From Nitzschia sp. pyKryTriq1 (Eukaryota; Bacillariophyta; Bacillariophyceae; Bacillariales; Bacillariaceae), in NCBI GenBank assembly GCA_956465555.1, contig OY101115.1, positions 4,378,120 to 4,442,119 of the forward strand: 64,000 nt of DNA, read 5' to 3'. Made by a program: the position numbers and the translations under genes. The notes below the pieces were generated by a model. It did no database searches, was not told the origin of the DNA, and worked only from the letters and a program-made list of their open reading frames with translations. Within the stretch, counting starts at the first letter, position 1. Every line of letters starts with the position of its first letter. Below are positions 3,085-40,813 of the stretch, in pieces.

Positions 3085-4710
3085 ATGGGTCACCGCCAAC
3101 ACAAAAATCCCCTGTCCAACTTATTTCGCTCCCACAAAAAGAAGAATGGCGGTGGGCGTGCAGGAGAAGGAACGCCACTCTTGGCGGCCATGGAGGAAGG
3201 ACATGCTGCTGGTGCTGCTGCTGGTGGTGGTGGTGCTGCTGCTACCGAATGGAATAGTAGCTGCGGTAATGACCAATCCTCGGATTACCAATCGTCGGTA
3301 GATTCTCGATCCGCATTTCATCCTTCGAATTATAATATCGGAGATGCCGCCCTGGGATTCCACGTCAGGCCACATCAGAAAGCAGCAACAGGAAAAAAGG
3401 ATTACTGGAAGATTTTACGCGAAAGGGTCAAAGGAGGAGATTTGCTGCTCCACGGAATCGGTAACAATGAGCATCTGAAAGATCGAGCGAATGAAAGAAG
3501 TAGTGTGATGATGGACCGTAATGAACAAAAAATTCAAGAAGCCATTGATGAAATTCGACAGGGCATGGAATTCGGTCTCTGGCATTGTCTGATTGCCATT
3601 GTGATATATTTGGGCATTGCCGTGGCGTGTTTCAATACCATCTTTGAACCCTCATGGAGTATTTTGGACAGTGTCTACTTTGCCGTAGTCACCTTTTCCA
3701 CGGTGGGTTATGGAGACGAAGTCCCCACCACACATGCCAGCATGATCTTTACTTGTTTCTATGCCTTGTCGGGTGTGGCGATTCTCGGAATTGCACTTGG
3801 TATCTTGGGCTCCAATTTAGTGGATGCACAAGAAGCCGTGGCCAACAAGGCCGAGAATTTGCTCAAATATCAAGTCCTGAGTGTCTTTGATACGAAAAAG
3901 ACATCGCAAGTCAAATCGAGAGAAGATATTTTGTATGAAGAAGAACACGGTGGCAGGTCCAAGCCATCCGATGATGAAGAAGAAGAAGAAATGTTGCGGC
4001 AACCCTCCTTCTTTCGGTCCACACTGTCCTGTCTCAAGAGTTTTCTTCCACTTTTGGGAGTCATGCTGGGTATGGCGTATTGGATCGGTAATCGTGCGGG
4101 ATGGTCGCTTTTGGAAATCACCTACTTTTTGATTGTCACTGCCACGACTGTCGGGTACGGAGATTTTACCCCCAAATCGGATGAAGAAAAGATGATTGCT
4201 CTCTTATTCATCCCCGTCGCAGTGGGTGCCATGGGAGTTTGGCTTGGTGGTGTGGCCAATATCATTGTCGAATCGCGATCGGCGCGGTATCGACGCAACA
4301 TGGGGATGAAGGAACTCACCCAGCACGATTTGGATATCATGGATAGGGATGGGGATGGTGCTGTCACAAGAGCCGAGTTTTTGGAATTCATGTTGGTAGC
4401 CATGAATAAGATTGACCAAACATTAGTGGATGAACTTCGGCAACATTTTGACCGATTGGACGCGGATGGAACCGGAGAACTAACCAAGAACGATTTGATT
4501 GAAGTCGCTCGCGCGAAACTCAAGAGTCCGGTACACAAACTACATCTCTCCATGTACAAGAAACGTCTCATGAATGAATCATCAGTTGTTGCTGGGGCCA
4601 GAACGAGGAGAGGATTGATGGCGGGATGGAGCCCTCAGTTTTTCAGCCATATGAACATGAGACGTTCGAGCGACTCCATATCCTCGTCCGCTGCGCCATC
4701 TCGTCGCTAA
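3085..4710 (+). CDS. Two-pore potassium channel (TPK/KCO type) with two EF-hands
   Basis: 541 residues from an ATG at 3085. Two pore loops carry the K+ selectivity filter, TVGYGD at residues 207-211 and again TVGYGD at 356-360. Each is flanked by hydrophobic helices, giving four membrane segments in the 2TM-P arrangement repeated twice. The C-terminal tail has two EF-hand loops: DRDGDGAVTRAEF near residue 420 and DADGTGELTKNDL near residue 459, both with the usual acidic Ca-binding positions. This order (2TM-P, 2TM-P, two EF-hands) is that of plant TPK1/KCO1, known as Ca2+-activated vacuolar K+ channels. The first ~130 residues are Gly/Ala- and Ser-rich with no signal peptide. An acidic stretch (DDEEEEE) lies between the two pore units. 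Inferred: Ca2+-regulated K+ flux across an internal or plasma membrane. Confidence 0.95.
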   Translation: MGHRQHKNPLSNLFRSHKKKNGGGRAGEGTPLLAAMEEGHAAGAAAGGGGAAATEWNSSCGNDQSSDYQSSVDSRSAFHPSNYNIGDAALGFHVRPHQKAATGKKDYWKILRERVKGGDLLLHGIGNNEHLKDRANERSSVMMDRNEQKIQEAIDEIRQGMEFGLWHCLIAIVIYLGIAVACFNTIFEPSWSILDSVYFAVVTFSTVGYGDEVPTTHASMIFTCFYALSGVAILGIALGILGSNLVDAQEAVANKAENLLKYQVLSVFDTKKTSQVKSREDILYEEEHGGRSKPSDDEEEEEMLRQPSFFRSTLSCLKSFLPLLGVMLGMAYWIGNRAGWSLLEITYFLIVTATTVGYGDFTPKSDEEKMIALLFIPVAVGAMGVWLGGVANIIVESRSARYRRNMGMKELTQHDLDIMDRDGDGAVTRAEFLEFMLVAMNKIDQTLVDELRQHFDRLDADGTGELTKNDLIEVARAKLKSPVHKLHLSMYKKRLMNESSVVAGARTRRGLMAGWSPQFFSHMNMRRSSDSISSSAAPSRR

Positions 4711-11356: not shown

Positions 11357-12307
11357 ATGAAGATCTTCAGTAGTGCCGTCTTGGCGCTCAGCGCCGCCCA
11401 CACCGCCAGTGCGTTCATGGTGCAAACGCCCCCGCAGACCGCGACGGCGCTCCAGTCGTCCTCGTATTTCGGAGACCCGAATCAGCCACAGGTCACTGCC
11501 GCTGCGTTTGCCAATTCCGCCGGAGGAGCCATGGCGTCGGCTGGCCGTGCTGGACCAGGCAAGGTCGAGAATATCTGGGATACGTTGACGCCCATCACCG
11601 TTCAAGGAGGTTCGCTCCGAACGTGGTCGTTCACGACGCCCTCCGTCGAGCGAGTCCAAGTTCTAATGAAGACTGAAGGCCGTCCGTTGAATGCCAACAT
11701 TGAGTTGTGGCACGGACCTGACAACACGCCGCAAAAGGTCGCCGTCTATCTTGAGGACGGAAACCTGCGCCCCTTCAGCGCCGTGATCGAAACCCCACGA
11801 GGCCACAACGCTGTCGCCATCTACAACACCGGACACTTGGAATTCCCATTGTCCGCGTGTGTCGAGGCCGAATTGTCGGACGGCGGCGGTGCTGCTGGCC
11901 TTGGTGCCGCCACCAAGAGTCTGTCAGAGATGAGCACCTCGAAGACCGTGCAAGGAGGTGCAATCCACACCATCCCGTTCGCCCCCGCTGTTGAAAGCGT
12001 GGCATTACTGCTCAAGACGGACGGACGTCCTCTCAATGCCCGAATTGAGCTCTTGCAAGGCCCCAACAACAACAAGCAAATCATGGAGGTCTACACCGAA
12101 GACGGCTTGGAACGCCCGTTCTACGCCATCCTCGAGACCCCAGGAGTTGGAAATGTTGTTCGAGTGTGCAACACTGCCACCGTTGAGTTCCCCTTGACGG
12201 CATCTGTCGAACCGTATCTCGTCACACCAGGCGCAGATAATTACCCATCAGAATACGACCGCGGTTGGGACGAGAGTGCCAACAGCTTCTATTTCTTGAA
12301 CCCTTAG
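11357..12307 (+). CDS. Plastid-targeted two-repeat protein; candidate pyrenoid shell (PyShell) protein
   Basis: 316 residues from an ATG at 11357. Residues 1-19 form a signal peptide ending ASA, with Phe20 at +1 (ASAF motif), the diatom plastid import signal; a short transit-like region follows. Two homologous domains come next. Domain 1 (about 81-171) and domain 2 (about 197-286) both have VQGG, then K-T-D/E-GRPLNA-x-IEL, GP-[DN]-N, a V-Y-x-EDG, RPF, ETP and EFPL. A short acidic/aromatic tail ends YFLNP. Only one Cys lies in each domain. From memory, diatom PyShell proteins that encase the Rubisco pyrenoid are nuclear-encoded, plastid-targeted and have two pseudo-symmetric conserved regions followed by a C-terminal extension; this fits well. 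The PyShell assignment is inference; the targeting and internal duplication are seen directly. Confidence 0.75.
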   Translation: MKIFSSAVLALSAAHTASAFMVQTPPQTATALQSSSYFGDPNQPQVTAAAFANSAGGAMASAGRAGPGKVENIWDTLTPITVQGGSLRTWSFTTPSVERVQVLMKTEGRPLNANIELWHGPDNTPQKVAVYLEDGNLRPFSAVIETPRGHNAVAIYNTGHLEFPLSACVEAELSDGGGAAGLGAATKSLSEMSTSKTVQGGAIHTIPFAPAVESVALLLKTDGRPLNARIELLQGPNNNKQIMEVYTEDGLERPFYAILETPGVGNVVRVCNTATVEFPLTASVEPYLVTPGADNYPSEYDRGWDESANSFYFLNP

Positions 12308-14296: not shown

Positions 14297-16108
14297 CTAA
14301 CGCAATAGCCAGGCGAGTGCGAGAAGACAGACTAGCGGCAAGAGACCGTCGCGCAGAACTACAAGAGTCGGTGACAGCTGCCGCCGCGGGTGGGGTTCTA
14401 CGTCACACCCGCCTCTCCCTTCTAACTCTCGATGACGATCCACTGCTGAATCCCGACGTGTTGCTGCTGTTGCTCTATTACGAGTAACAGTCGGAGGCGG
14501 AGGAGCTGTAGTAGTGGTAGTATCTTGTGCTTGTGGAAAATATTCCGGTCGAAGTATTGCCGTGACTTGTTCGGGTGGTCCCAGTAGTCGCACGGATAAT
14601 TCAGTCACTTTGGATCCAAATCGTCCTTGCCAAAACCTCAAATCTTTTCCCACGACGACGACCGAGAGATATCTCGCATTCGTATCGTGAACCGCCGCGA
14701 CTAGTGGTATTGTCAATCGAGCCCGTTCCCAATGATCGGGTGGTGCCTCCAAGACAGGTGTCGCCGTCGTTGCTTGTTGTTCTTGTGGTGGTATCGGACG
14801 ACGCTGAGCATCAAACAGTTCAGCTTTGAGACAAAAGATGGAGGGACAATCCGTTCGGCCCATGTACCGCGCGGAAACTTCCAGTGTCAGTGAGGACGAG
14901 CCATCAGTAGGAATAGTTGTGAAGATGGTAGACAAGTCCAGTACTTGTTCCATGACACATGGGGCATAGGACGATACAAAATTGGTCAAGGTGGTCGCAT
15001 TGACGGGATGTTCCGAAGTTTCAACAGTCCACGACATGCGAGGGTTGCGTTGGTGCCATCCCTGCAATTGAAATTGCCCACTTGGATTGAATAATAAATT
15101 GGCCGATCCAGGTTCTTCCACGATACTAGCTTCCACATTTGACGTGGATTGACACCATGCGCATCCATAGACTTGCTCTGACTTGGACGTGGGACCATTC
15201 GAATGATGGCTTTTTCTTCTTGACGACGAAGAACCTCCTTCATCTTCGGCGGATGGTTTGGGATAAGGACAATCGTCTCCGGGACAAGGGATGGGAGAAA
15301 GTGGTGGTGGTCTGACGGCGCTCCTCCGATTCCTGCTAGACTGTCCTTGTAATTGTAATTGCGATTGACGAACTCGTTGACTGTTCCGAGCATGACAATC
15401 GTCACAAAAATGTACGTTGCCATAACACAAATGAGTGGAAGGCCGACAGCAATATCGGCACTTCCACACCAAATGTCCCCGATGCTCCAGTGGATTCCGA
15501 CACGTAACTTGTGATTGTGGCGCACACGCCACACACAATCGTTCTTCCAGCTGTTCTTCTCCTTCTACCAGCACTGCTTGATCCGCACACTCCACTGTTC
15601 CACCAAAATACGGTTCACGACAGTGACTACAAAGGTAAAATGCGTACTTTCGTCGGGCATGATCCAAGAGGGCCTTGCGAGAAGAAGACAAGCCATCGTC
15701 ACCAACTTGATGTTGCCGCCAAAGATCCGGAGCATCCAAAGCAAGTTGCTCTTCCAACAGGCGATCGACTCGTTCTCGCAAAACGTCTGTGGTGCGTGTC
15801 AAATCGCGAAGATCCGGATGGTCGCAAATCGATCCACATTTCGCGCATTGGCATCCCGTGAAGAGTAGTCGTTGCTTTGTCGTTGGTTGAGCCGTTTGAA
15901 GTTGTTGCACAATGCAGTCGTAATGCCACTTGTGTCCGCATGTCGGAAGAGTAATGACACGGCGGCCACTGTCCTCTAGGAGCGAATCAAGGCAAATGGC
16001 ACAATCAGTAGATGTATCTTCAAAGATCGTAGCTACTGTTGCTGTTGCTGTTGCTGCTGCCGCTGCTACTACTACTGTGGATGTTTCTCCTCCTGTTTCA
16101 TCCTCCAT
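14297..16108 (-). CDS. RING-Cys-Relay (MYCBP2-type) E3 ligase fused to an FBA domain with C-terminal hydrophobic tail
   Basis: 603 residues from the ATG at 16108 (an upstream GTG is in frame but not used). RING finger: C36, C39, C57, H59, H62, C65, C88, C91. Next comes a tandem-cysteine domain like that of MYCBP2/PHR1: YLCSHC (C160, C163), YFGGTVEC with C174 at the place of the first relay Cys, LCVAC (192, 195), CRYCC (217-221), and CYGNVHFCDDCH, whose C228 matches the second, esterifying Cys and whose final H239 is kept. Cys pairs at 275/280 and 316/319 follow. Residues about 335-510 read as an F-box-associated (FBA) domain: NLLFNPSG, VSSYAPC, and RFWQGRFGSKVT, with aromatic pair F492-W493 where glycan-binding FBXO2 has Tyr-Trp. 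A Pro/Thr linker and a 14-residue hydrophobic end (588-601) suggest a tail anchor. Inferred: a single-chain ligase that recognises glycoproteins, perhaps in ER quality control. Confidence 0.85.
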   Translation of the reverse strand: MEDETGGETSTVVVAAAAATATATVATIFEDTSTDCAICLDSLLEDSGRRVITLPTCGHKWHYDCIVQQLQTAQPTTKQRLLFTGCQCAKCGSICDHPDLRDLTRTTDVLRERVDRLLEEQLALDAPDLWRQHQVGDDGLSSSRKALLDHARRKYAFYLCSHCREPYFGGTVECADQAVLVEGEEQLEERLCVACAPQSQVTCRNPLEHRGHLVWKCRYCCRPSTHLCYGNVHFCDDCHARNSQRVRQSQLQLQGQSSRNRRSAVRPPPLSPIPCPGDDCPYPKPSAEDEGGSSSSRRKSHHSNGPTSKSEQVYGCAWCQSTSNVEASIVEEPGSANLLFNPSGQFQLQGWHQRNPRMSWTVETSEHPVNATTLTNFVSSYAPCVMEQVLDLSTIFTTIPTDGSSSLTLEVSARYMGRTDCPSIFCLKAELFDAQRRPIPPQEQQATTATPVLEAPPDHWERARLTIPLVAAVHDTNARYLSVVVVGKDLRFWQGRFGSKVTELSVRLLGPPEQVTAILRPEYFPQAQDTTTTTAPPPPTVTRNRATAATRRDSAVDRHRELEGRGGCDVEPHPRRQLSPTLVVLRDGLLPLVCLLALAWLLR

Positions 16109-17152: not shown

Positions 17153-20100
17153 ATGTATCGAGCTCAGCCTTGGAGCAGCACCTCTGGAGAAGGGAGTACG
17201 TCAGAGGATATGAGCGGAAGCCACTCGGAAGACTATTCTTCGGATGACGATGAGGGAGGGCCTTCTTCGCTGGAGTATAGCGACAACGCGTCTCTGAAAG
17301 GTATGCCGTATCTTGCTCAAAAGACTCCTAGACAACGGGGAAAGGGCGGTGAACTTGTAGAAAATACCCCCATGACTGCAGACATGTCATCCGAGTCCAC
17401 ATCGGGGTCAGAGGACGATGGCGCCGTTACACCGAAAGTGAACCTGACTTCGTCGAGGATGCAGGCTATTACTCAAGGCAGCAATGGACGTCAATCTCAA
17501 CAATATTCTTATGAAATGGCCAAGAATTACGCGGCCACTCGTTACGCACCAGCGTCGAGTAAGAGTGGCCGCAGCAGCAGCAAGAACGAAGCGCCCAGGC
17601 AGCAGTCATCATCAGCGAAAAAGAGTAAAAAGACGCCCAGCGAAAGGAAAAGGGGTATTGGTCGCAGCAAGTCTGCGGACACTGGTAGTTTGCTTTCGAG
17701 CTACTCTTATGAAGAACAAAATGAAGATAACGAGATCTTGTCGCAGGCACTTGGAATGAAGCCTGCCTTCGTCGCCCCATCTGGCATGCAAGAAAAGTTT
17801 CAACGCCGGGCCTCGCTGTCGGCTGTTGAGCCATTAGGAAGGGCGAAACGCCGATCTTCTTTGGTTTCGACCTATTTAGCACCCGCGATGGAGGCTGCAG
17901 CACCCGTCGCTGCACCTGTGGACGAAGAACGGGCGGCCAAGATGGCCGAAAAAGAAAAGGTCATGGAAAGACTTGAACGAATCAAAGCAAAGGCTATCAA
18001 GTCGGCCAACAAAGAACTTGGAGTGGAACAAGGCAAGCTTGCAGCTGTGATGGGAATGGGATCTAATGCACCAACCATGTTAGCCACCAAATCTCAAGGG
18101 AGACAGCAGTCAATGGAACAAAGACGGGTCAGCGCTGCTTCCAGTGGTTCCTCGGGTTCAAAAGGGTTGTTCCAAGAAGCAATCAAGAACATAAGGGTGG
18201 AAGACACCGAGACAGAATCGGAAGATGATGACAGTGCTCAGGAGGATCAGGACACCCCTTCATTTGCGGCACAGCCGAATTCATTGGCAGCAGCTTTGGG
18301 GATGTCGATTGATCCCTCGTCTTCCGCACCTCCAGTCCGAGAGCGCGGTGTCAAGCTACGGCCAATCGCTGCGAAAGGGGCTCAAACAGTGTCGGTACAA
18401 CCGAACTCGTTGGCAGCCGCTCTGGGAATGTCAGTTGATCTATCGTCTTCAGGTCCATCGATTGGGCAAAGCAGCATTCAGGCATCCCGATCTATCCCCC
18501 CTCAGTCTAATTCTTTGTTTGCCGCGCTTGGAATAGCAACTGATCCCATGCCTTCGGTTCATGTGCGAAACGAAGTCAAGACTCTATCCGACTCCGAATC
18601 AGATTATAGTAGCGATGATGAAAAACGAATGACTGGCTTTCAGCCCCAAGTCGGAAGTTTGGCTGAGGCTCTCGGCATGGTCGTCGACCCATCTTCTCGC
18701 GCTGCCCCAGTCCGACAAATTGGCGATAGATTTTCAGCTGAACGAGAGTTTGCCCGGCCTACCACAGCAAAGCCGGCAGAGCAATCATCAACTAGCCACG
18801 GTGGGCCTCGGTTTCTTCCCCAGGCTGGCAGTCTTGCCGAAGCTCTTGGGATCTCTGTTGATCCATCATCACGAGCACCTGTTATCCGCTATAATGACAA
18901 AGCACACGTTTCGGTTGCTTCCACACAAGATATTACACCAGACACCTCCGATTCTTCTTTTCCCGTGAACACCACGGGGATTTTTCTGCGCCAAGCAGGT
19001 ACGCTAGAAGATGCCATTGGAATGTCAGATAGTAGCAGCCAGGCGTCCGAAGTAAGCGACGAGAGCGCAGATGGGGATATGGTACGATTTGCGCCACAAC
19101 CTGGCAGCCTAGCGGAAGCCTTGGGAATGGGAATCGACCCATCGTCTCGCGCGCCTCCGGTACGCCCAATCAAGGAGAAGGTGGTAATGAGCGAGCCACC
19201 AAAGATCAAGACTTACGACTCCCAAAGTGAAACCTCTTGCTCTGGCAGCAGTGACGACGAAAGCGAGGAGGACGAAATGGTACGATTCGCGCCGCAGGCT
19301 GGTAGTCTCGCGGAGGCGTTGGGAATGGGGATCGACCCCTCATCTCGGGCGCCTCCGGTGCGCCCGATCAAGGAGAAGTTGTCCACGAGCAGCCTTCCTG
19401 TTCCCTCTGCAACGAAGTCTGTCGACTCTAGAAGCGAAGCATCGTACTCCGGTAGTAGCGAGTACGACAGCGAGCAAGACGAGATGGTACGATTCGCACC
19501 TCAGGCTGGAAGTCTTGCAGAAGCGTTGGGAATGGGAATCGACCCATCGTCTCGGGCGCCCCCAGTGCGACCAATAAATGCGAAGTCCTCCACGAACAAC
19601 CTTCCAGTTCCCTCTGCGACGAAGTCTGTCGACTCGAGAAGCGAAGCATCATATTCTGGCAGCAGTGACGACGAAAGCGAGGAGGACGAAATGGTACGAT
19701 TCGCGCCGCAGGCTGGTAGTCTCGCGGAGGCGTTGGGAATGGGGATCGACCCCTCATCTCGGGCGCCTCCGGTGCGCCCGATCAAGGAGAAGTTGTCCAC
19801 GAGCAGCCTTCCTGTTCCCTCTGCAACGAAGTCTGTCGACTCTAGAAGCGAAGCATCGTACTCCGGTAGTAGCGAGTACGACAGCGAGCAAGACGAGATG
19901 GTACGATTCGCACCTCAGGCTGGAAGTCTTGCAGAAGCGTTGGGAATGGGAGTCGACCCATCGTCTCGGGCGCCCCCAGTGCGACCAATAAATGCGAAGT
20001 CCTCCACGAACAACCTTCCTGTTCCCTCTGCGACGAAGTCTGTCGACTCGAGAAGCGAAGCATCATATTCTGGCAGCAGTGACGACGAAAGCGAGGAGGA

Positions 20101-23100
20101 CGAAATGGTACGATTCGCGCCGCAGGCTGGTAGTCTCGCGGAGGCGTTGGGAATGGGGATCGACCCCTCATCTCGGGCGCCTCCAGTACGACCAATCGCG
20201 CCTCCAAAGACCAAGACTTACGACTCGAGAAACCAGGCATCGTACTCCGATAGTAGCCACTACGAAAGCGAGCAAGAAGAAAAACATCGAATTGCACCTC
20301 AGGCTGGCAGTTTGGCGGAGGCGTTGGGAATGGGAGTCGACCCCTCATCGCGGGCGCCTCCTGTGCGACCAGCCAAACCAACTCAAAGCTTGTTCGACAC
20401 AGTTGTCAAGCGCGCGGTGGATATGCAGGGCGGAAAGATATCAGTCAGCCAGTTAGAGAAGCCTCAAAGTGGCAGCCTTGCTGCTGCACTTGGCATGGAT
20501 ATTGATCCGTCGTCCGGGTCTGCGCCGATCCGGAATTCCACACCGATGCCAATGCCAAGTGTGCCCAAGAAGAATCTGTTTGATGTTGTCTCCACAGAAG
20601 CGCCTGAATCATCAAGGCCTTTCAAATCTGCTCAAGCTGGAAGTCTTGCCGCAGCCCTCGGAATGACGGTAGATTCGAGTATGGACGCCCCGCAAGTTCG
20701 TCATATCGCACAACCGAGCGTAGCTTCGAGCAGACCAAAGAAAAACCTGTTTGAGTCTGTGATGTCGAATGCAGTCGCTAATTTCAATCCTGCGCGATCG
20801 GTCGAAGCAAAAAGTAAAGCCCAAGCTGGAAGTCTGGCAGCTGCTCTAGGAATGGGTGTAGATTTCGCGCAGGATGCGCCTCCAGTTCGTTCTGCTGCGT
20901 CTACAGGTGTGCCAAAGAAGAATCTATTTGACATTGTCTCTCCAGAAGCTCCTGAATCGTCAAAGTCAGTTGGATCGGCTAAACCTGGAAGTCTCGCTGC
21001 AGCTCTCGGAATGACGGTCGATTCGAGTATGAGCGCCCCGCAAGTTCGTCAAGTTGAACCGACAGATGCCCCTCCGAGCGGATCCAAGAAGTCGCTGTTT
21101 GGTGCTGTGATGACGAATGCAGTCGCCGCCTCAAAGCCAACGCGATCCAATGAAGCGAAGGCTCAGGCGCAAGCCGGAAGCTTGGCAGCAGCCTTGGGAA
21201 TGCGCGTGGAAACCTCGCCAGAACCTCCAGCGCCTTCTCCAATGGCCTCTCAGGCTCATGCTGGAAGTTTGGCAGCTGCCTTGGGCGTACCCGTGTCCAC
21301 CTCGTCAATGCCTCCAGCACGTCCGTCGATGGCTTCCCAGGCGCAAGCCGGTAGTCTCGCTGCAGCTCTGGGAATGACGGTCGATTCGAGTATGAGCGCC
21401 CCGCAAGTTCGTGAAGTTGAACCGACAAATGCCCCTCCGAGCGGATCCAAGAAGTCGCTGTTTGGTGCTGTGATGACGAATGCAGTCGCCGCCTCAAAGC
21501 CAACGCGATCCAATGAAGCGAAGGCTCAGGCGCAAGCCGGAAGCTTGGCAGCAGCCTTGGGAATGCGCGTGGAAACCTCGCCAGAACCTCCAGCGCCTTC
21601 TCCAATGGCCTCTCAGGCTCATGCTGGAAGTTTGGCAGCTGCCTTGGGCGTACCCGTGTCCACCTCGTCAATGCCTCCAGCACGTCCGTCGATGGCTTCC
21701 CAGGCGCAAGCCGGTAGTCTCGCTGCAGCGCTCGGAATGACGGTCGATTCGAGTATGAGCGCCCCGCAAGTTCGTGAAGTTGAACCGACAAATGCCCCTC
21801 CGAGCGGATCCAAGAAGTCGCTGTTTGGTGCTGTGATGACGAATGCAGTCGCCGCCTCAAAGCCAACGCGATCCAATGAAGCGAAAGTCCATGCACAAGC
21901 CGGAAGTTTGGCAGCTGCCTTGGGCGTACCCGTGTCCACCTCGTCAATGCCTCCAGCACGTCCGTCGATGGCTTCCCAGGCGCAAGCCGGTAGTCTCGCT
22001 GCAGCTCTGGGAATGACGGTTGAGTCGACGTCAAACGCAGCACAAGTGGGTCAGGTGGAACCATCAAACAGACTCTCAAGCGAACCTAAGAAGAGCCTTT
22101 TTGACACTGTGATTTCGAAGGCAGCGAATGCTACGAGTAAATCATCTGCTGAGTCGTCAATGGCCATGCCGCCTCAAGCGGGCAGTCTTGCCGCTGCCTT
22201 GGGAGTTAGCATCGCTTTTGCGACTCCAGTACCTCGTCCAAATCAAACACCCACGACACGAGGAGTCTCAAGCCAACCGCAGTCTGGCAGCCTAGCAGCT
22301 GCTCTAGGTATGGTTGTGAAAACCTCGCCGCCGGGATCCCCACCTGTCGTTTCACCCCTTCCATCAATGACACCCAATGTCGAACCACGTGCCCAAGCTG
22401 GAAGCTTGGCTGCGGCACTCGGAATGCCCGTTGACACAAATACCCCTACTGCTGTCCGCCCGGGCAATGGCGTTGCAACAAAGCAACAGCCTTCTCAGCC
22501 AATCATGAATGGAAGCCTTGCCGCAGCGTTGGGAATATCTGCATCTGCAGAGAGCAATGGAATGGCTCAGGAAGACTCTCAGATTTGGGCTGGAAGCCTG
22601 GCCGCAGCGTTGACTGGAATGAATGCTGACTCTTCAGCCAAAGCTCTTCCCGGACGTCAAAGCAAGACTCCAACAGGGAAGAAAAGCAGTCTGTTCGATA
22701 CTGTGATTCAAAGTGCTGCTGGTGCAACCAAGCAAGGCAAGAGCCTAAAAAAGAAACAACAGCAGCAACCTCAGACAGGAAGTCTGGTGGCAGCGCTTGG
22801 CGTATCCGTGAAATCAACGTCAAGCAACTCACCAACGACTTCTAATAAGACAGATATGCCAAGCGTTGACACTATTCCTAAGCAAAGAAAGCCCTTGAAG
22901 AAAAAGAAACAGAGGCGGGAAGAGCCGACCAAGACTGCACCTTTGATCACAAGTCCAAAACCCATTCCAAATCCTCAGCCAATGTCTGCAGTAGAAGCTC
23001 GTGGAACTGGTGTCGCTGCAGATGACAGGATCCCAAAGAAGAGCACCAAGAAGCCAAAGAAGCAAACGCAAGCCGATATTGCAGCAGCACAGACCATGTC

Positions 23101-26100
23101 CGCCGTCCAAGCTCGTGCGGGAAGCATCGCTGCGGCTCTGGGCCTACCGATGGCATCCGCTGAAGCTCCTCCGAAGAAGGACGTCGAAAAGCTGCAGCAG
23201 CAAGCAAAGACCCAAGCCGACTTTGCAGCAGCACAGACCATGTCCGCCGTCCAAGCTCGTGCGGGAAGCATCGCTGCGGCTCTGGGCTTACCGATGGCAT
23301 CCGCTGAAGCTCCTCCGAAGAAGGACGTCGAAAAGCTGCAGCAGCAAGCAAAGACCCAAGCCGACGTTGCAGCAGCACAGACCATGTCCGCCGTCCAAGC
23401 TCGTGCGGGAAGCATCGCTGCGGCTCTGGGCTTACCGATGGCATCCGCTGAAGCTCCTCCGAAGAAGGACGTCGAAAAGCTGCAGCAGCAAGCAAAGACC
23501 CAAGCCGACGTTGCAGCAGCACAGACCATGTCCGCCGTCCAAGCTCGTGCGGGAAGTATTGCTGCGGCTCTGGGCTTACCGATGGCATCCGCTGAAGCTC
23601 CCCCGAAGAAGGACATCGAAAAGCCTCAGCAGCAAACACAAACGGCAACACAGACCATGTCCGATGTACAAGCTCGTGCGAATAGTATCACTGCAGCTTT
23701 GGGTCTCCCAGATCAATCAGGTGGCAGCATCGAATCTAGCTCCACGAGTAGGAAGGCGGGTCAACGAAAGAAAAACCTGTTCGCTGCTTTGGCAGAAGAG
23801 TCGTCTGATAGTGCTATGCAGAGCTCGGGGCTGTCACAAGATTCAAGTGCATCTACAGCTAGAAAACCTAAATCCAGCCACAGGAAAAGTCTATTCGAGC
23901 CAGTTGACCCTGAACCATCGACCTTGTCTGAAAAAGAGAGCGCACGAGAATCTAGCGGGGCTGCCACGCAGCAAACTTCTACTACCAGCGGCTCTGATCC
24001 TGACCGAGAAGCCAAATCTCGCCCGGCATCTAAAAAGGGGAATATTTTTGATGCTACCAGCTCCGATCCTGATCGAGAAGCAAAATCACGTACTACTCAA
24101 CAGAGGAGCTCCACGTCTAAGAAAGGAAATATCTTCGATGCTGCACTCGGAAAGACAAAGACTCAGTCACCACAGATGCCTGCTGAGACACCAATCCAAG
24201 CCCGGACCTTTATGCCGCAGCCGGTGACGACAGAAGAAAAACGAGCTCACAAGGAAAAGGCTATGTCGCGGCTAGATCGGATCAAAGCTAAAGCCATCAA
24301 GTCTGCCAACAAAGAACTTGGGGTAGACGAAATGGCACTAGCATCTGCGATGGGAATGAAAAGTGCGCAGCCATCAGGCAATGCGACCACGACTCGAGGC
24401 GAATCTGCCCAAGGCTCAGATCCATCTGAAGCGGAGCAAATGAAAAATCTCGCCGCAAGCCTTGGTCTTCCAGCGTCTTTCTTTGGTGCACCCACGTCAC
24501 CCACTTCACCAACCAGGAAAAAGAAAAGCTTACTTGAGTCTGCAGTCCGTGACGTTTCCGTCGGTAAAAAGGCAACGCCGAAAATGGCAAGGTTGACCGA
24601 AGGTGACGAGGAAGATGGGGCCTCTACTGATGCCCCCTCTGCTGATTTTCCAATTGATCACGAGCCAAGCTCTGCCGTGTCTGTACAGGACACTGCGGCC
24701 GATCTCCCTTCTCGTGTGCTTCCAAATAAGGAGCGAACTTTCAAGCCACAGCCGATAACTGCAGAAGAGAAACGAGCTGATAAGGAGCAAGCGATGTCGA
24801 GGCTTGAACGTATCAAGGCTAAAGCGCTCAAGTCCGCACAGAGAGAACTTGGGGTCGATGTTGACGGGCTCGCGAGTGTTATGGGAATGAATCCAATGAA
24901 GACAGAAAGTGCCAAGAACAAAGCCAAACCTGTACCAACAACACAAGCCGCGGAAGAGGAGGCAGAGCAAATGGAGCTTCTTGCTGAAAGTCTAGGCCTT
25001 CCTCCTTCTTTTTTTGGTATTGTTCACCAGAACCAGGCCAAGAAGAATGCAACGCCCAGCAAGCCTGACAGGCAGCAGGATGCAACCCCAGCAACTCCAG
25101 TTGCGGCGCCCGTAGCCCCTGAAACGGCTCTAGTCACCCCTGGCTCTCTTGCGTACTCAGAAAAGAATGAGCAAGCCGAGACATCCATGACTTCTCAATC
25201 ACTGAGCGGGGAAATTGAAGATGGTGTTGAATTGGATAAAGAAATGGCGAAGGACATGATTGCTGAAGATACGTCAAAGGCTTTCTTGGAGGCAACAAAG
25301 AAGCTCAGCATGGGCATCTCTGAAGTCCAGGTAGGAGTAAATGAAGTGATGAAAGAACTTTGTATGACAAGAGGAGAGATTGGGCAAAACTCCGGCATTA
25401 CTGAGGTACAGTCAGGTCTCAAACAGCTGACGGACGAGATCGCCAACGCTCGCGGAGAAATTTCGGGCGTCAAGCTCGCTCTTGCGTCCATGGAAGGCAA
25501 GCTTGATGCATTGACTCCTATTGTCGTCTCTAAAGTGGAACCGACATTGGATGTTGCCGAAACCGAAAAGTCGATGAAGGCAGCGTTGGCCGAATTCGAA
25601 GCAAAGGCCGAGGGTGCCACTGCCTACAGCAAATCCCTCGAGGAACAGCTAATGAAAAAGACCAATTCTTATTCCGAAAAGCTTTCGCAACTTCACGAGC
25701 AGCTTGTCACGCATGAACGCGAGGTGTCGGAGAAGGCTGAAACCATCAAGCGACTTGAAGCAAGTGCCGGAGGAGAAGCGCAGGCCCAGGAATTCGTAGC
25801 CAATCGATGGTCTGAGACGGAGAATCGTCTTCTACAGGCGTGCAACGAGATCCAAGCATTCCGTTCGCTGCTAGCACAAGAATACGAAGAAATCAAACTA
25901 CTCAAGAGCTCACTGGACGAAGAGCGGTTGGCTCTGATCTCGAGTCGACTCGAAGTCTTTGATGCTGATTCGCTCAGTACCGTCAGCGCATCCAAGGATG
26001 ATCTCAACGACGAAGACAATCTGGCAACACTTACGTCGGCAGCCATTCTTAATATTCAGCGAAAGCTTCAACTCGAAGGGCAAAGACGAAAGACGCTTAC

Positions 26101-29011
26101 AGCGCGACTGAAAGCTAAGAGGAAGAACCAGCGAAAGGCCATCATCGATTCATCGAAGCTCCAGGACAAATTGGTGGTCAAACTCGATGAAAAGGCAGCC
26201 GAGAGGGCGTCACCAAACGAGAAGTTCACATTTGAGGCAAAATATGCCGAGGACAAAATCGATCAAAAGGCAGGAAAGATCGAAGAGGCCGTATCCGAGG
26301 GAATTAACACAGTCCACGGGGATGAGCCAAATGCTGATAATACAGGGGAAGCTCCTGCAGCGATGCACGAAGATGCGGATATCGAGACTGAAGATGCACT
26401 TGGGTTCGTGAATACGACGCGAGGTGAGGAACTCGCAATTTATCCAGGCGCCGAAGCAACTGATGCAGATCCTGCGACCGAAGCCTCAGACAGCGGTTCT
26501 CTAGCTGTCACCACTGCGGCATCACAGGTACCGGTCGATTCTTTGACTGATATTGCCCAGCCAGCAGACGCCTCTGAGTTGGAACAAGAATTACCCAAGG
26601 CCGCATCAGAACATGCTTCATCTTCGGAGACAGATGGTGACATCATGCCGGTCCAGGCTGCTCAGCGAGACGGAGAAGTGACCGAGGGTATCATCCCACG
26701 CGAGATTGGTTCGACTGACGAGTGTCTTGGTGAGAAATCGATTGTCAAGACTACAGAATCCGACTCTGAGGCCGAAAAGTTGATGATCGCAGTATTGGAA
26801 GAAAATACACACCCGGCTGCAACTCAAGCCGAAGAAAGCGAACCACATGCGGCTTCTGACAAAACGGAGGATGCAGTGGCCGAGAATCCGATCGAGGTAC
26901 AACGGGCCGAGGAGACACCCGAATCAAAAGAAGAATTAGAAGTGCTAGCAACCAAGCCTGAAACTTCAACCGAAGCCCAAGAAGCGGAACCAAGAGATAT
27001 TGCCGAGACCAAGGCGGAGATACCAGACGTCGGAGATAAACTCCAGACACCAGAAGATGCACAAGCCCTAGTGGGCGAAACAATGGTAGAAGTGGCAGCA
27101 GCAGAGGATGATGATGTTGCTGTGGACGATTCCATTGTAGCAGAATCGCAAGAGGACAGCAGCACCAAGGAGGCCGTGGCCGTTGAAGAGGGAAAGTCGG
27201 TGATTGTTTTGGTAGAAGCTGACAAGCCAGCGCCACCGGAAGAACCGAATCCCAGTTCCCAAAACGAGAAATCTCCAGCGGCTTCGGAAGAGCTCAAAGA
27301 GAGCGATGACCACCCTATACCTGTGCAAGATGAGTTTGTGTTACTGGCTGCCGAGGCACCCGAGTTGGTGGAGGAGCCTGCAGCTGTAGCCAACCAAGTT
27401 GTCGAAGTCGAAAGTTCGGTCCTTGATGAGACTATTGGTGCAACGGAGCCCGTATTACTGACTGCCGAGGCACCCGAGGCACCCGACGTGGCGGCGAAGC
27501 CTGCAGTTCTAAATAAGCATGTTGCCGAAGCCGAAAGCCCTGTCGTTGATGAGACTATTGGTGCCACTGAGGATGTACAAGTGAAAGATGAGCCCGTACT
27601 ACTACCCGAGCCAGTGGAGGGGCAGGTTACCGAAGCCCAAAGCTCGGTTCTTGATGAGCCTATTGTTGCCACTGAAGAATCGGAGGAAGAGTCTGGAGTG
27701 AAAACCGATGACATTGATGCCTCTCCTACAGCTGTTGAAATTGATATAGAGGAGATGATCGTCCCTCCCGAACAATTCGAATCGGTCGCTGTCGAGGCTG
27801 ATATCACCGCTCCCGAGCAATCCGAGTCGGCGGAAGGTCTTGCAACTGAGGCAAAGGAAATCGAGGACGCCGTCTTGCCGCGATCGACAACTGAAGAGTC
27901 AGTTCCTGCTGAGCCACCTGTTGTAACTGAGGAGCCCGTGTCCGTAGCAGAACCTGAGGTCATGTTGGATCAACCCGATGATGTTGCCTCGTCTCCCGAG
28001 GCACCTGGTGCCATCGCAGCCAAAGAATCTGAAACTTTGGTCCAGGAAGATGTCCAAGAAGTGTCCGCAGTACTTGAAACCGAGAAAACACAAGAAGGCG
28101 CCGAAGACTCTCCCAAAGAAGAAGAAGACACGTTATTGGTGGAAGTATCGCATATTCCAGAAAGTGTTCGCGCCGCACCAGCATTAATCGACGATGATGC
28201 GTCCACAGACACACCTTTGACTTCGAACAAGGAAAAGACAGAAGGTTCGCCGCTGACTGGGGCTGCTAAACAAGAAAATGAAACCTTACAAGCTACTAAG
28301 CGTTCCGTTGCCCCGCCACCACCCGATTACCCGCCAGAAGACAAGGAGGATGACACTTCTGCATCAATGTTGGCCGCTTTTGGCTTTATCCTTCTCTGCT
28401 CTTTTGCTTCGTATGTTACCTACGTTGGATCGGGCAGTCCTGTTAACTCTACACCCTTTGTGACAACTGGAGAACCAAAAGAGGCACCAGTTGTGGCTCC
28501 CACGAACGAAGGCCGCAATGTCGTGCCAGTAGACGATGCAGCAGCTCCAGCTTCCTCACCGGAAGGAGAGAAGCGACTGCGTTCTGCTCAAAAGCGTAGC
28601 GCTGCACTCAAGAAGAAGCTGACCATAAATCAGGAAATCAATACGTCCGGCAGCGAGTACAAGAATTACGAAGTCCCGTTGATGGCAATGTCATTTGTGA
28701 ACATTCGAGACGACCAACGTGTTGATATCTTGGATGGAGATGACGACTCTCGATCCAGCGATGGAAGTACTGGGTCTGGAACGTCGTCGCGAGCCAGCGA
28801 CTCTTCCGAATCGTCCATGGAAGACTTCAACCCGCTGCCGGCACCTCACGCCGACCTCTTTGCGCCAAGCTTGACCGTATACCACCTTTCGCAGCAGCCA
28901 TCCCAATCACGAGAAGCAAGAAAGGCCGCTCGAAGGAGATACAGAAAGAAATTCATTGAGGGTCTGAACTCAATCCTGAAGAAGGAACTTGAAGACGACT
29001 ACTGGATGTAA
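17153..29011 (+). CDS. Giant (3952-residue) multivalent repeat protein with coiled coil and C-terminal membrane segment
   Basis: One open frame with no intron. Order of regions: a Ser/Asp-rich N-terminus without a signal peptide; a basic helix RLERIKAKAIKSANKELG near residue 270; about 36 copies of a motif [GN]-S-[LI]-x-[AE]-A-L-G-[MVIL] (residues about 370-2180), often followed by DPSSRAPPVRP; many spacers with KK-[NS]-LF-[DG]-x-V; two more copies of the basic helix (about 2370 and 2547), each followed by a related LA-x-SLGLP-x-SFFG; a coiled coil (about 2720-3030); a long acidic Glu/Pro/Val-rich region; one membrane segment (about 3735-3757); and a ~190-residue basic and Ser-rich tail. No enzyme domain is recognised. 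Inferred: a membrane-anchored scaffold whose repeats act as many identical binding sites, like sticker-and-spacer condensate proteins. The binding partner is unknown. Confidence 0.85.
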   Translation: MYRAQPWSSTSGEGSTSEDMSGSHSEDYSSDDDEGGPSSLEYSDNASLKGMPYLAQKTPRQRGKGGELVENTPMTADMSSESTSGSEDDGAVTPKVNLTSSRMQAITQGSNGRQSQQYSYEMAKNYAATRYAPASSKSGRSSSKNEAPRQQSSSAKKSKKTPSERKRGIGRSKSADTGSLLSSYSYEEQNEDNEILSQALGMKPAFVAPSGMQEKFQRRASLSAVEPLGRAKRRSSLVSTYLAPAMEAAAPVAAPVDEERAAKMAEKEKVMERLERIKAKAIKSANKELGVEQGKLAAVMGMGSNAPTMLATKSQGRQQSMEQRRVSAASSGSSGSKGLFQEAIKNIRVEDTETESEDDDSAQEDQDTPSFAAQPNSLAAALGMSIDPSSSAPPVRERGVKLRPIAAKGAQTVSVQPNSLAAALGMSVDLSSSGPSIGQSSIQASRSIPPQSNSLFAALGIATDPMPSVHVRNEVKTLSDSESDYSSDDEKRMTGFQPQVGSLAEALGMVVDPSSRAAPVRQIGDRFSAEREFARPTTAKPAEQSSTSHGGPRFLPQAGSLAEALGISVDPSSRAPVIRYNDKAHVSVASTQDITPDTSDSSFPVNTTGIFLRQAGTLEDAIGMSDSSSQASEVSDESADGDMVRFAPQPGSLAEALGMGIDPSSRAPPVRPIKEKVVMSEPPKIKTYDSQSETSCSGSSDDESEEDEMVRFAPQAGSLAEALGMGIDPSSRAPPVRPIKEKLSTSSLPVPSATKSVDSRSEASYSGSSEYDSEQDEMVRFAPQAGSLAEALGMGIDPSSRAPPVRPINAKSSTNNLPVPSATKSVDSRSEASYSGSSDDESEEDEMVRFAPQAGSLAEALGMGIDPSSRAPPVRPIKEKLSTSSLPVPSATKSVDSRSEASYSGSSEYDSEQDEMVRFAPQAGSLAEALGMGVDPSSRAPPVRPINAKSSTNNLPVPSATKSVDSRSEASYSGSSDDESEEDEMVRFAPQAGSLAEALGMGIDPSSRAPPVRPIAPPKTKTYDSRNQASYSDSSHYESEQEEKHRIAPQAGSLAEALGMGVDPSSRAPPVRPAKPTQSLFDTVVKRAVDMQGGKISVSQLEKPQSGSLAAALGMDIDPSSGSAPIRNSTPMPMPSVPKKNLFDVVSTEAPESSRPFKSAQAGSLAAALGMTVDSSMDAPQVRHIAQPSVASSRPKKNLFESVMSNAVANFNPARSVEAKSKAQAGSLAAALGMGVDFAQDAPPVRSAASTGVPKKNLFDIVSPEAPESSKSVGSAKPGSLAAALGMTVDSSMSAPQVRQVEPTDAPPSGSKKSLFGAVMTNAVAASKPTRSNEAKAQAQAGSLAAALGMRVETSPEPPAPSPMASQAHAGSLAAALGVPVSTSSMPPARPSMASQAQAGSLAAALGMTVDSSMSAPQVREVEPTNAPPSGSKKSLFGAVMTNAVAASKPTRSNEAKAQAQAGSLAAALGMRVETSPEPPAPSPMASQAHAGSLAAALGVPVSTSSMPPARPSMASQAQAGSLAAALGMTVDSSMSAPQVREVEPTNAPPSGSKKSLFGAVMTNAVAASKPTRSNEAKVHAQAGSLAAALGVPVSTSSMPPARPSMASQAQAGSLAAALGMTVESTSNAAQVGQVEPSNRLSSEPKKSLFDTVISKAANATSKSSAESSMAMPPQAGSLAAALGVSIAFATPVPRPNQTPTTRGVSSQPQSGSLAAALGMVVKTSPPGSPPVVSPLPSMTPNVEPRAQAGSLAAALGMPVDTNTPTAVRPGNGVATKQQPSQPIMNGSLAAALGISASAESNGMAQEDSQIWAGSLAAALTGMNADSSAKALPGRQSKTPTGKKSSLFDTVIQSAAGATKQGKSLKKKQQQQPQTGSLVAALGVSVKSTSSNSPTTSNKTDMPSVDTIPKQRKPLKKKKQRREEPTKTAPLITSPKPIPNPQPMSAVEARGTGVAADDRIPKKSTKKPKKQTQADIAAAQTMSAVQARAGSIAAALGLPMASAEAPPKKDVEKLQQQAKTQADFAAAQTMSAVQARAGSIAAALGLPMASAEAPPKKDVEKLQQQAKTQADVAAAQTMSAVQARAGSIAAALGLPMASAEAPPKKDVEKLQQQAKTQADVAAAQTMSAVQARAGSIAAALGLPMASAEAPPKKDIEKPQQQTQTATQTMSDVQARANSITAALGLPDQSGGSIESSSTSRKAGQRKKNLFAALAEESSDSAMQSSGLSQDSSASTARKPKSSHRKSLFEPVDPEPSTLSEKESARESSGAATQQTSTTSGSDPDREAKSRPASKKGNIFDATSSDPDREAKSRTTQQRSSTSKKGNIFDAALGKTKTQSPQMPAETPIQARTFMPQPVTTEEKRAHKEKAMSRLDRIKAKAIKSANKELGVDEMALASAMGMKSAQPSGNATTTRGESAQGSDPSEAEQMKNLAASLGLPASFFGAPTSPTSPTRKKKSLLESAVRDVSVGKKATPKMARLTEGDEEDGASTDAPSADFPIDHEPSSAVSVQDTAADLPSRVLPNKERTFKPQPITAEEKRADKEQAMSRLERIKAKALKSAQRELGVDVDGLASVMGMNPMKTESAKNKAKPVPTTQAAEEEAEQMELLAESLGLPPSFFGIVHQNQAKKNATPSKPDRQQDATPATPVAAPVAPETALVTPGSLAYSEKNEQAETSMTSQSLSGEIEDGVELDKEMAKDMIAEDTSKAFLEATKKLSMGISEVQVGVNEVMKELCMTRGEIGQNSGITEVQSGLKQLTDEIANARGEISGVKLALASMEGKLDALTPIVVSKVEPTLDVAETEKSMKAALAEFEAKAEGATAYSKSLEEQLMKKTNSYSEKLSQLHEQLVTHEREVSEKAETIKRLEASAGGEAQAQEFVANRWSETENRLLQACNEIQAFRSLLAQEYEEIKLLKSSLDEERLALISSRLEVFDADSLSTVSASKDDLNDEDNLATLTSAAILNIQRKLQLEGQRRKTLTARLKAKRKNQRKAIIDSSKLQDKLVVKLDEKAAERASPNEKFTFEAKYAEDKIDQKAGKIEEAVSEGINTVHGDEPNADNTGEAPAAMHEDADIETEDALGFVNTTRGEELAIYPGAEATDADPATEASDSGSLAVTTAASQVPVDSLTDIAQPADASELEQELPKAASEHASSSETDGDIMPVQAAQRDGEVTEGIIPREIGSTDECLGEKSIVKTTESDSEAEKLMIAVLEENTHPAATQAEESEPHAASDKTEDAVAENPIEVQRAEETPESKEELEVLATKPETSTEAQEAEPRDIAETKAEIPDVGDKLQTPEDAQALVGETMVEVAAAEDDDVAVDDSIVAESQEDSSTKEAVAVEEGKSVIVLVEADKPAPPEEPNPSSQNEKSPAASEELKESDDHPIPVQDEFVLLAAEAPELVEEPAAVANQVVEVESSVLDETIGATEPVLLTAEAPEAPDVAAKPAVLNKHVAEAESPVVDETIGATEDVQVKDEPVLLPEPVEGQVTEAQSSVLDEPIVATEESEEESGVKTDDIDASPTAVEIDIEEMIVPPEQFESVAVEADITAPEQSESAEGLATEAKEIEDAVLPRSTTEESVPAEPPVVTEEPVSVAEPEVMLDQPDDVASSPEAPGAIAAKESETLVQEDVQEVSAVLETEKTQEGAEDSPKEEEDTLLVEVSHIPESVRAAPALIDDDASTDTPLTSNKEKTEGSPLTGAAKQENETLQATKRSVAPPPPDYPPEDKEDDTSASMLAAFGFILLCSFASYVTYVGSGSPVNSTPFVTTGEPKEAPVVAPTNEGRNVVPVDDAAAPASSPEGEKRLRSAQKRSAALKKKLTINQEINTSGSEYKNYEVPLMAMSFVNIRDDQRVDILDGDDDSRSSDGSTGSGTSSRASDSSESSMEDFNPLPAPHADLFAPSLTVYHLSQQPSQSREARKAARRRYRKKFIEGLNSILKKELEDDYWM
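19274..20170 (+). repeat. In-frame tandem duplication, 414-bp period
   Basis: The stretch starting GAAATGGTACGATTCGCGCC appears at 19274, 19688 and 20102, exactly 414 bases (138 codons) apart. Each period contains two GSLAEALGM motifs and is nearly identical at DNA level. This is recent expansion inside the giant gene that kept the frame. Confidence 0.9.
21060..22020 (+). repeat. In-frame tandem duplication, 363-bp period
   Basis: Sequence around 21117 recurs at 21480, and in shortened form at 21843, 363 bases (121 codons) apart and almost identical. It encodes the block KKSLFGAVMTNAVAASKPTR followed by three GSLAAALG motifs in the full copies and two in the third. Confidence 0.85.
23090..23640 (+). 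repeat. In-frame tandem repeat, 144-bp period, four copies
   Basis: AGACCATGTCCGCCGTCC occurs at about 23091, 23235, 23379 and 23523, each 144 bases (48 codons) apart. Each copy encodes TMSAVQARAGSIAAALGLPM. A fifth, diverged copy begins near 23655. Confidence 0.9.
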
Positions 29012-36751: not shown

Positions 36752-37307
36752 GGTAGACTACTTGAAAACAACAGAAGTAAAAATATACGTAGATTGCTGA
36801 CCTCCTCTCGGAATAAGGAAAATCGTAAGTTGTATTTTGAATCAAACGTTCGGTGAGATAGCGGATGGATTGAAATTTGAAATAGGGGGCACCAAAGCTT
36901 GACCAAAGCGTCGTCTCATTCGTTTCTGGGACCACTCCGATCGTTCCAAGACCCAGCCCGCCGAAAATCAATCCAGCCCGGGACTTCGACTGATGTCTGT
37001 GCGCGCGGACCGAGATCGAGAGACAGACAACCATACAACTCAACCGTCCGTCTGTTTATTATCCCACCAAAACCAGAAAAGATGACAGAGGACAAAAAAT
37101 AATAGCACCCACACAAAACCAGAAAAGATGGGACAGAGGACAAAAAATAATAGCAAACGAATAATAGGAAGCTAATTCAAATACGCGAGGTTGTGAAATT
37201 ACAAGGGAATATGCATTCAAAGCAAGGACATATATTTCTCCTTCGCTCAAGGGAGACATGCTCCCGTGCGATCGGTGGGTGGGTGCAAGAAAGGCGATGA
37301 GGAGAAA
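36752..37307. other. Intergenic; ~40-bp direct repeat
   Basis: About 560 bases. AAAACCAGAAAAGATG followed by ACAGAGGACAAAAAATAATA is present twice, at 37069-37107 and 37115-37155. The last ~60 bases before 37308 are almost identical to 40752-40813, the 3' flank of the second symporter gene. Confidence 0.6.
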
Positions 37308-39385: not shown

Positions 39386-40813
39386 GCTGATGTTGTCGTT
39401 CACGGAAAAGAACTTGGGAGAATGAGTGAAAAAGGAAATGGCAGTGAGCGACAGGCAGGATAAAAGCAGAGATGTGCAATGGCGACATCAAACGTCCAAC
39501 ATTTACCTTGCTTATTGATTGACTCTTCTGGAAAAAGTGAAGTGCTCAGTTTGTCTTTTGGAAATGCGAGATTCCAAAATTATATTCTGATCGTTTTTTA
39601 GGTTGTTACACGGAAAAGAATGATGGAAGAAATGATCGAGCAGCTGCTTCTCGGCGTGATGTCAAGACACACGAGATCTTCCTTGCTTCTGCTTTAGCAC
39701 TTACCCGTACAACAAGTACAGCAGTGCAGTACTCATACAGTAATCACTCCTTCATTATGATTATGATATTGCATACATAGTATTACCCGTAGCAGTGCAT
39801 GCTTCTCTACATTCCTCCTCTCCACTACCGGTACGTACGATACTTCCGTGTGGTACGAGTACTTGTACTGTACGAGTATTGACAGATGAGGGTTCGCGAT
39901 TTCTTGGATGGCAAGAATAAAACAGCTCCGTACGAAACAGAGAATTTCAAACATCAATAGAATTCTTCGACGAAAATAAATATGCCCTATCGTGAAGCCC
40001 AGACATACATAACGCATGCAAGATTGATTCTTCCAGCGCTGGCCGGGCGGGAAGCGATACCTGTACCAGGTACTGTACGGGACAGTTGTACAGTAGACTA
40101 CCTGCCTGGTACGCAGTATTCTACTACACCGTGTGGACAGGTACAGCACCAGGTACTGTACCTGTACGGTACTACTGTGTGAAACGGATTATTTTGGTAT
40201 TTATTGGTGGTCTTCTGGATATTGCCCTGAGGAATAACGAATTTGAATTAGGGCTATTTAATTATTGTAAAAAGAGATAGAGAAGCCAAGAATTCCAACA
40301 AAATTCGCGAACTACTACTGTACATGATTGGCCGGTACCTGGTACTACTACTTTATGTCGACTTCTTCTTCTTGCTTGAAGGAAGTAAAAAATGCATGCA
40401 TGCATGGATGGATGCATGGAAGCATGCATGCAGAATGACTTCGATGATTCATGCATGATGCGTTGATCCATTGATTGGAAACTCCGTCGAAAGAAGGCAT
40501 CTCTTCGAAGTTCTATGGTCGGTGGCGCGGTGATGATGTAGGTGGTGTTCGAATGTCTTGGGAGTAAAAATAGCAGGGGGCAAGGAGGAGTAAAACTGAA
40601 CCAGTACTGGCTGGTGCTCACAGTCCTAAGTACGAGTACCGCAAAGACCGAAGAGCGGCGGAAGTAGCTAGCAACGTGTGAAAGGTTTGCTAATATACTA
40701 ATACGATGCTGCGATTGCAAAACAGCCAGACAGGGACATAGTTCTACTTCGCTCAAGGGAGACATGCTCCCGTGCGATCGGTGGGTGGGTGCAAGAAAGG
40801 CGATGAGGAGAAA
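39386..40813. other. Intergenic between tandem symporters; palindrome-rich
   Basis: About 1.4 kb. GTAC-based palindromes (CCAGGTACTGTAC, CAGGTACAG) cluster at 40060-40180, and ATGCATGC/GCATGCAT palindromes at 40393-40460. The last ~60 bases are shared with the 3' flank of copy 1. No gene seen. Confidence 0.5.

Follow-up and report, generated by a model that had tools for sequence, protein, structure and literature searches.

Inspection of a 64,000-nucleotide stretch of nuclear DNA from the diatom Nitzschia sp. pyKryTriq1 (contig OY101115.1, positions 4,378,120 to 4,442,119; called the window below) identified a long open reading frame (ORF) on the minus strand, at 14297..16108. Its 603-amino-acid (603-aa) product contains a RING-H2 finger, a tandem-cysteine (TC) domain resembling that of MYCBP2, an FBA domain and a hydrophobic C-terminus, in this order. 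In the literature, MYCBP2 figures as the first example of a RING-Cys-Relay (RCR) ligase and, among human E3s, as a notable atypical one. The features of the locus, and the basis on which each was assigned, are as follows:

14297..16108, minus strand: whole ORF, 603 aa, no intron required, stop codon within the coordinates
15833..16006, minus strand: RING-H2 finger, residues 35-92 (Pfam zf-RING_11 plus a Cys/His table)
15644..15832, minus strand: linker between RING and TC domain, residues 93-155 (length close to that in MYCBP2)
15119..15643, minus strand: TC domain, residues 156-330 (alignment to MYCBP2)
15587..15589, minus strand: C174, predicted upstream relay cysteine, equivalent to MYCBP2 C4520 (alignment)
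15542..15544, minus strand: E189, predicted catalytic-triad Glu, equivalent to MYCBP2 E4534 (alignment)
15425..15427, minus strand: C228, predicted downstream relay cysteine, equivalent to MYCBP2 C4572 (alignment)
15392..15394, minus strand: H239, predicted catalytic His, equivalent to MYCBP2 H4583 (alignment)
14588..15115, minus strand: FBA domain, residues 332-507 (Pfam PF04300)
14966..14968, minus strand: Y381, equivalent to Phe177 of Fbs1/FBXO2, putatively stacking on N-acetylglucosamine (GlcNAc) (alignment)
14630..14635, minus strand: F492-W493, equivalent to Tyr279-Trp280 of Fbs1/FBXO2, putatively GlcNAc-stacking (alignment)
14303..14368, minus strand: C-terminal helix, residues 581-602, possible short tail anchor (AlphaFold2 (AF2), hydropathy)

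The frame starts at an ATG at 16108, with an in-frame stop codon just upstream, and runs for 603 codons without a stop. From stop to stop it spans 621 codons, a length not due to chance: when the 64-kb window was shuffled 30 times by mononucleotide, no frame between stops exceeded 259 codons. The 40.65-Mb assembly contains a second copy of the locus on contig C3, the first being on C1. The C3 copy is also open and codes for 601 aa, the only difference between the two proteins being two Val residues in the low-complexity N-terminus. The DNA around the two copies is 99.8% identical over 4.8 kb, and C1 and C3 are collinear across most of the window (blocks at 94.6-99.7% identity). The correspondence between these contigs was observed at all four places tried from 3.9 to 4.70 Mb of C1; no second full copy was found for the single C6 region tried. 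The C3 copy is taken to represent either the second haplotype or a large duplication of recent date, and it provides no independent evolutionary evidence.

A sequence search of solved structures placed two MYCBP2 RCR chains first (phmmer E 3.1e-19 for 5o6c, over residues 27-241, and 7e-19 for the second chain, over residues 31-241). The score of the TC segment comprising residues 141-245 was 179; 5000 full shuffles gave a mean of 32 and a maximum of 66, and 5000 shuffles with every Cys and His fixed gave a mean of 68 and a maximum of 136 (z 9.3). Since no shuffle of either set reached 179, the match to MYCBP2 is specific at the sequence level. Cys-rich zinc domains inflate similarity scores, and the TC likeness might thus reflect chance or a convergent cysteine pattern, not homology; the shuffles with fixed Cys and His, however, refute this at the level of sequence and leave it a negligible probability.

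Both relay cysteines (C174 and C228) and the His and Glu of the catalytic triad (H239 and E189) are conserved in the alignment. The MYCBP2 residue numbers C4572, H4583 and E4534 are consistent with the PDB sequence register. In the MYCBP2 TC domain, five Cys pairs have counterparts (C4506/C4509, C4537/C4540, C4561/C4564, C4579/C4582 and C4631/C4634, in MYCBP2 numbers), as does C4600, while C4549 aligned with C203 locally but not in the global alignment. Several TC His positions are displaced relative to MYCBP2, with H209 and H301/H302 nearby. The catalytic His and the last Cys pair lie 77 residues apart, 29 more than the 48 of MYCBP2, and past residue 245 the match is weak, the last Cys pair being aligned by a second, insignificant piece alone. 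For MYCBP2, PMC12664034 reports that a C4520S mutant is catalytically inactive, and PMC9527308 describes the second site as a Cys-His-Glu triad and the enzyme as preferring threonine, with no activity on lysine.

A search of the assembly with the MYCBP2 TC domain, at E<=10, found nothing beyond this gene and the copy on C3 (E 3.3e-15, 37% identity over 86 residues); here, as in the other assembly searches, only the best candidates are rated and introns are ignored. A second TC candidate, on contig C5 (31% identity over 54 residues, E 0.06), was dropped because its frame resembles a PH-domain protein by eye. No TC model was found in Pfam, where the RCR region of MYCBP2 itself matches six RING-type models plus one chance match. 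Automatic annotation would therefore label the gene as RING plus FBA, and other members of the family may for the same reason be unseen in genome annotations.

The RING finger matched zf-RING_11 in Pfam (E 7e-9, residues 35-66) and has all eight zinc-ligand positions of the RING pattern; its score was reached by 7 of 5000 full shuffles. For the linker, the similarity to MYCBP2 lacks significance, with 1761 of 5000 shuffles scoring at least as high. The FBA domain matched PF04300 with an E value of 3.4e-16 (60 bits, the curated cut-off being 32.4), and FBXO2 structures aligned over nearly the entire domain (5b4n, E 8.2e-7; 1umi, E 1.3e-6). All three stacking positions (Y381, F492 and W493) are aromatic. 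An F-box was not found among the four Pfam matches at E<=10, so the FBA domain appears to be wired directly to the ligase. No further FBA domain scored above the cut-off in the assembly, except for that of the C3 copy; a match on C5 (20.6 bits, under the cut-off, 27 positions, one internal stop) was dropped as noise. The coordinates and frame, the RING finger, the tandem-Cys domain with C174, C228 and H239, and the FBA domain with its Phe-Trp pair (F492-W493, on Y279-W280 of FBXO2) had all been proposed in an earlier note made from the DNA letters, and are borne out by these results; E189 is an addition.

By sequence, then, the protein bears the marks of an RCR-type E3, and it is neither a PHR protein nor an F-box protein. 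The reading favoured here, with about even confidence, is that it is a nuclear-encoded diatom RCR E3 with a built-in FBA substrate reader, which would release ubiquitin onto a hydroxyl of its substrate. The RING would bind E2~ubiquitin; the ubiquitin would pass to C174 and then be relayed to C228, from where the C228/H239/E189 triad would release it onto a hydroxyl group, either of Thr or Ser or, possibly, of a sugar. The acceptor would be the substrate bound by the FBA domain, most likely an N-glycoprotein exposed to the cytosol, and the hydrophobic tail would probably hold the enzyme at a membrane.

MYCBP2 (PHR/Highwire/RPM-1; PDB 5o6c and 6t7f) has the RING, linker and TC domain in the same order, and shares with the diatom protein both relay cysteines, the catalytic His and Glu, the eight RING zinc positions and the five TC Cys pairs. 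The MYCBP2 chain ends after the TC domain, at what is presumably the C-terminus of the full protein, whereas in the diatom protein the FBA domain and the hydrophobic tail follow. PHR proteins are giant and have RCC1-like and PHR domains; in contrast, the Pfam matches of the 603-aa frame are confined to RING-type models and FBA. According to PMC4806438, MYCBP2 exceeds 400 kDa and takes its reader, FBXO45, in trans, whereas the much shorter diatom protein has an FBA domain in cis. The same paper describes FBXO45 as the target reader of the PHR proteins of flies and mammals, in complexes thought to be cullin-free, and RPM-1 of C. elegans as having been found together with CUL-1.

Several observations weigh against the relay ligase with a built-in reader, and are given here together with the alternatives on which they bear. 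In the TC domain, no clear counterpart of MYCBP2 C4614 was found in the alignment. The RING finger is generic, in that its score was equalled by 1017 of 5000 shuffles with Cys and His kept in place. Single-step RING ligases are far commoner, and a protein with the full set of RING zinc-ligand positions might be one of these, with the TC domain as a zinc scaffold or relay-dead, and with the E2 passing ubiquitin directly to lysines of FBA-bound proteins. A mere scaffold, however, would have no need of the two relay cysteines or of the His and Glu of the triad, all of which have been kept; this renders an ordinary RING ligase unlikely.

The codon-usage test, for which nine other frames of the window served as reference, ranked the true frame first among six for the RING part alone. 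It scored 0.047 in the TC domain, 0.102 in the FBA domain and -0.076 in the tail, against 0.051, 0.109 and 0.029, respectively, for another frame. That the true frame does not stand out in three of the four parts is what favours an artefact of the gene model or assembly, in which two adjacent genes would have been read as one frame, or a pseudogene. Against this, the 603-aa frame is single and open, with no stop between the TC and FBA domains, and the C3 copy is likewise open and differs only by its two Val residues; such an artefact is thus highly improbable.

Structure prediction from the single sequence with AF2 gave a mean predicted local distance difference test score (pLDDT) of 35.6 for the whole protein and of 42.4 for the FBA domain alone. 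A Foldseek search with the latter, low-pLDDT model gave 462 matches, with E values no better than 0.37; none of the best 50 was an FBA structure. This outcome, being that of models with such scores, would count neither for nor against the folds. Searches of viral contigs (with the whole protein, the RCR part and the FBA domain as queries) and of prokaryotic genome contigs (with RCR and FBA alignments) yielded no confirmed relatives, as expected of collections that are not intended for eukaryotes. The genome set searched contained no relatives of the genome from which the window comes, and NCBIfam gave no families at E<=1.

The remaining points concern what the FBA domain reads. At the position of Fbs1 Lys281 the diatom protein has Q494. 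Its FBA domain is also slightly nearer to 5b4n (33% identity), the pocket of which has Tyr/Tyr/Trp/Ala, as in FBXO44, than to 1umi (28% identity), with Phe/Tyr/Trp/Lys in the pocket. The 5b4n chain is named FBXO2, and may be an engineered loop variant. In Fbs1/FBXO2, according to PMC4603797, binding requires Phe177, Tyr279 and Trp280, which stack against the two GlcNAc units in the core of the N-glycan; FBXO44 has the equivalent aromatics Tyr, Tyr and Trp, yet the same paper reports no sugar-binding activity for it. The pocket of the diatom protein could work as a glycan binder, but the aromatics are insufficient for this, because FBXO44 has them too and binds no sugar.

An alternative is therefore that the protein is an RCR-type ligase with its relay intact, but with an FBA domain that reads a protein degron instead of a sugar, its targets being unrelated to glycoproteins. 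FBXO44 provides a precedent, since with Tyr/Tyr/Trp at the three positions it binds no sugar (PMC4603797) and recognises a degron in RGS2 (PMC12554172). The loss of Lys281, and the FBXO44-like pocket residues of 5b4n, the closest FBXO2 chain, point in the same direction. On the other side, Y381, F492 and W493 are all aromatic despite an overall identity of just 28-33%. A degron reader is thus a possible, if somewhat doubtful, account of the domain. The earlier description of the domain as glycan-binding went beyond the evidence, given that FBXO44 keeps the aromatics without binding sugar and that Lys281 is replaced by Gln. Of the one-chain ligase that had been proposed, the combination of RCR and FBA parts stands by sequence, whereas neither glycan binding nor an ER anchor could be upheld.

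Compared with FBXO2/Fbs1 and FBXO6/Fbs2, the diatom protein has a nearly full-length FBA domain and the aromatic positions of the GlcNAc pocket. It differs in that their FBA domain serves SKP1-CUL1, while that of the diatom protein would sit directly on the ligase, with no F-box detected. FBXO44/FBG3 likewise has an FBA domain and the equivalent Tyr/Tyr/Trp, but is an F-box protein and binds no glycan. The closest functional parallel to the relay ligase with a built-in reader is SCF-FBS2 acting with ARIH1. According to the reviews PMC12203941 and PMC13270118, this pair attaches ubiquitin through an oxyester to NFE2L1, either at GlcNAc O6 or at Ser/Thr next to its sequons. Both would join an FBA reader to an ester-capable, cysteine-transthiolating ligase. 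SCF-FBS2 with ARIH1, however, consists of several proteins and uses RBR chemistry, whereas the diatom protein is one chain, with chemistry that would be of the RCR type. It has the parts that would be needed to do this job alone. A more specific version, in which the FBA domain sits on the N-glycan core and the RCR-type module esterifies a sugar hydroxyl (e.g. GlcNAc O6) or the Ser/Thr of the sequon, can be put forward only tentatively, and is rather doubtful.

Matches to an STT3-type oligosaccharyltransferase were found at two side-by-side loci of the assembly (L016 and L017, contig C6:2049214-2059159), which points to an N-glycosylation pathway in this organism. The ENGASE family GH85 was not found in the assembly by a search that ignores introns; this absence is weak evidence, and it means that the exact FBS2-ARIH1-ENGASE route is not reproduced. 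Ariadne-type domains were found at two loci of the assembly, as were transglutaminase-core matches, the latter not identified as PNGase.

The C-terminus contains a hydrophobic stretch of 14 residues (589-602; LLPLVCLLALAWLL), between a Gly and the terminal Arg. On a Hessa-type scale, the insertion sum is favourable at 14 residues (-2.09) and 15 residues (-1.35), and unfavourable from 16 residues (+1.23), reaching +3.0 at 21 residues. AF2 predicted a helix at 581-602, with a pLDDT of 62 for residues 581-590 and of 89 for residues 591-600. The tail may thus be a short tail anchor or a membrane-dipping helix; of all parts of the gene model it is the one least certain. The hydrophobic C-terminus noted earlier is therefore present, but the possible ER anchor is unsupported, the stretch of 14-15 residues having nothing ER-specific.

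The earlier note knew of no described protein with this order of domains, and none was named in the titles and abstract openings listed by searches of open-licence PMC papers. In that collection no paper was found to combine 'RING-Cys-Relay' with 'diatom', and of the three retrieved for the combination of PF04300 and RING none was relevant by title. If the more specific, sugar-esterifying version given above is true, the protein would represent both an RCR-type ligase from outside the animals and a dedicated sugar-directed ubiquitin ligase. An RCR-type protein of 603 aa in a diatom would show the module to be independent of the giant proteins of neuron type, and would offer a small enzyme for studies of mechanism. 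For SCF-FBS2 and ARIH1, the joining of ubiquitin to glycans has so far been observed mostly in vitro (PMC12203941); the RCR-FBA fusion would make it testable whether dedicated enzymes link ubiquitin to glycans or to adjacent hydroxyls.

Other genes of the window were inspected as well. The product of the frame at 11357-12307, on the plus strand, is a pyrenoid shell protein of diatoms (PF25192, E 5.6e-93), and it is because of this gene that the window is taken to be diatom nuclear DNA. Near the N-terminus of this protein lies an ASAF-like targeting motif. Also on the plus strand, a single open frame of 3952 aa at 17153-29011 has many repeats of the 'QAGSLAEALGM...DPSS.APPVRP' type; judged by eye, it also has parts that resemble coiled coils and, close to its C-terminus, a hydrophobic stretch. 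A frame at 3085-4710 (plus strand) has an Ion_trans_2 ion-channel domain, in two stretches, followed by EF hands. On the minus strand, a frame of 1242 aa at 59936-63664 combines phosphonate-binding-type, protein kinase and guanylate cyclase domains, resembling a receptor guanylate cyclase. Finally, a sodium:neurotransmitter symporter was identified by Pfam at 37308-38852, with a neighbouring frame at 40814-42310. Stretches of about 2.4 kb that hold these two frames, within 37232-43198, each cross-match the place of the other on C3, at 92.6-92.8% identity, which suggests a direct duplication.

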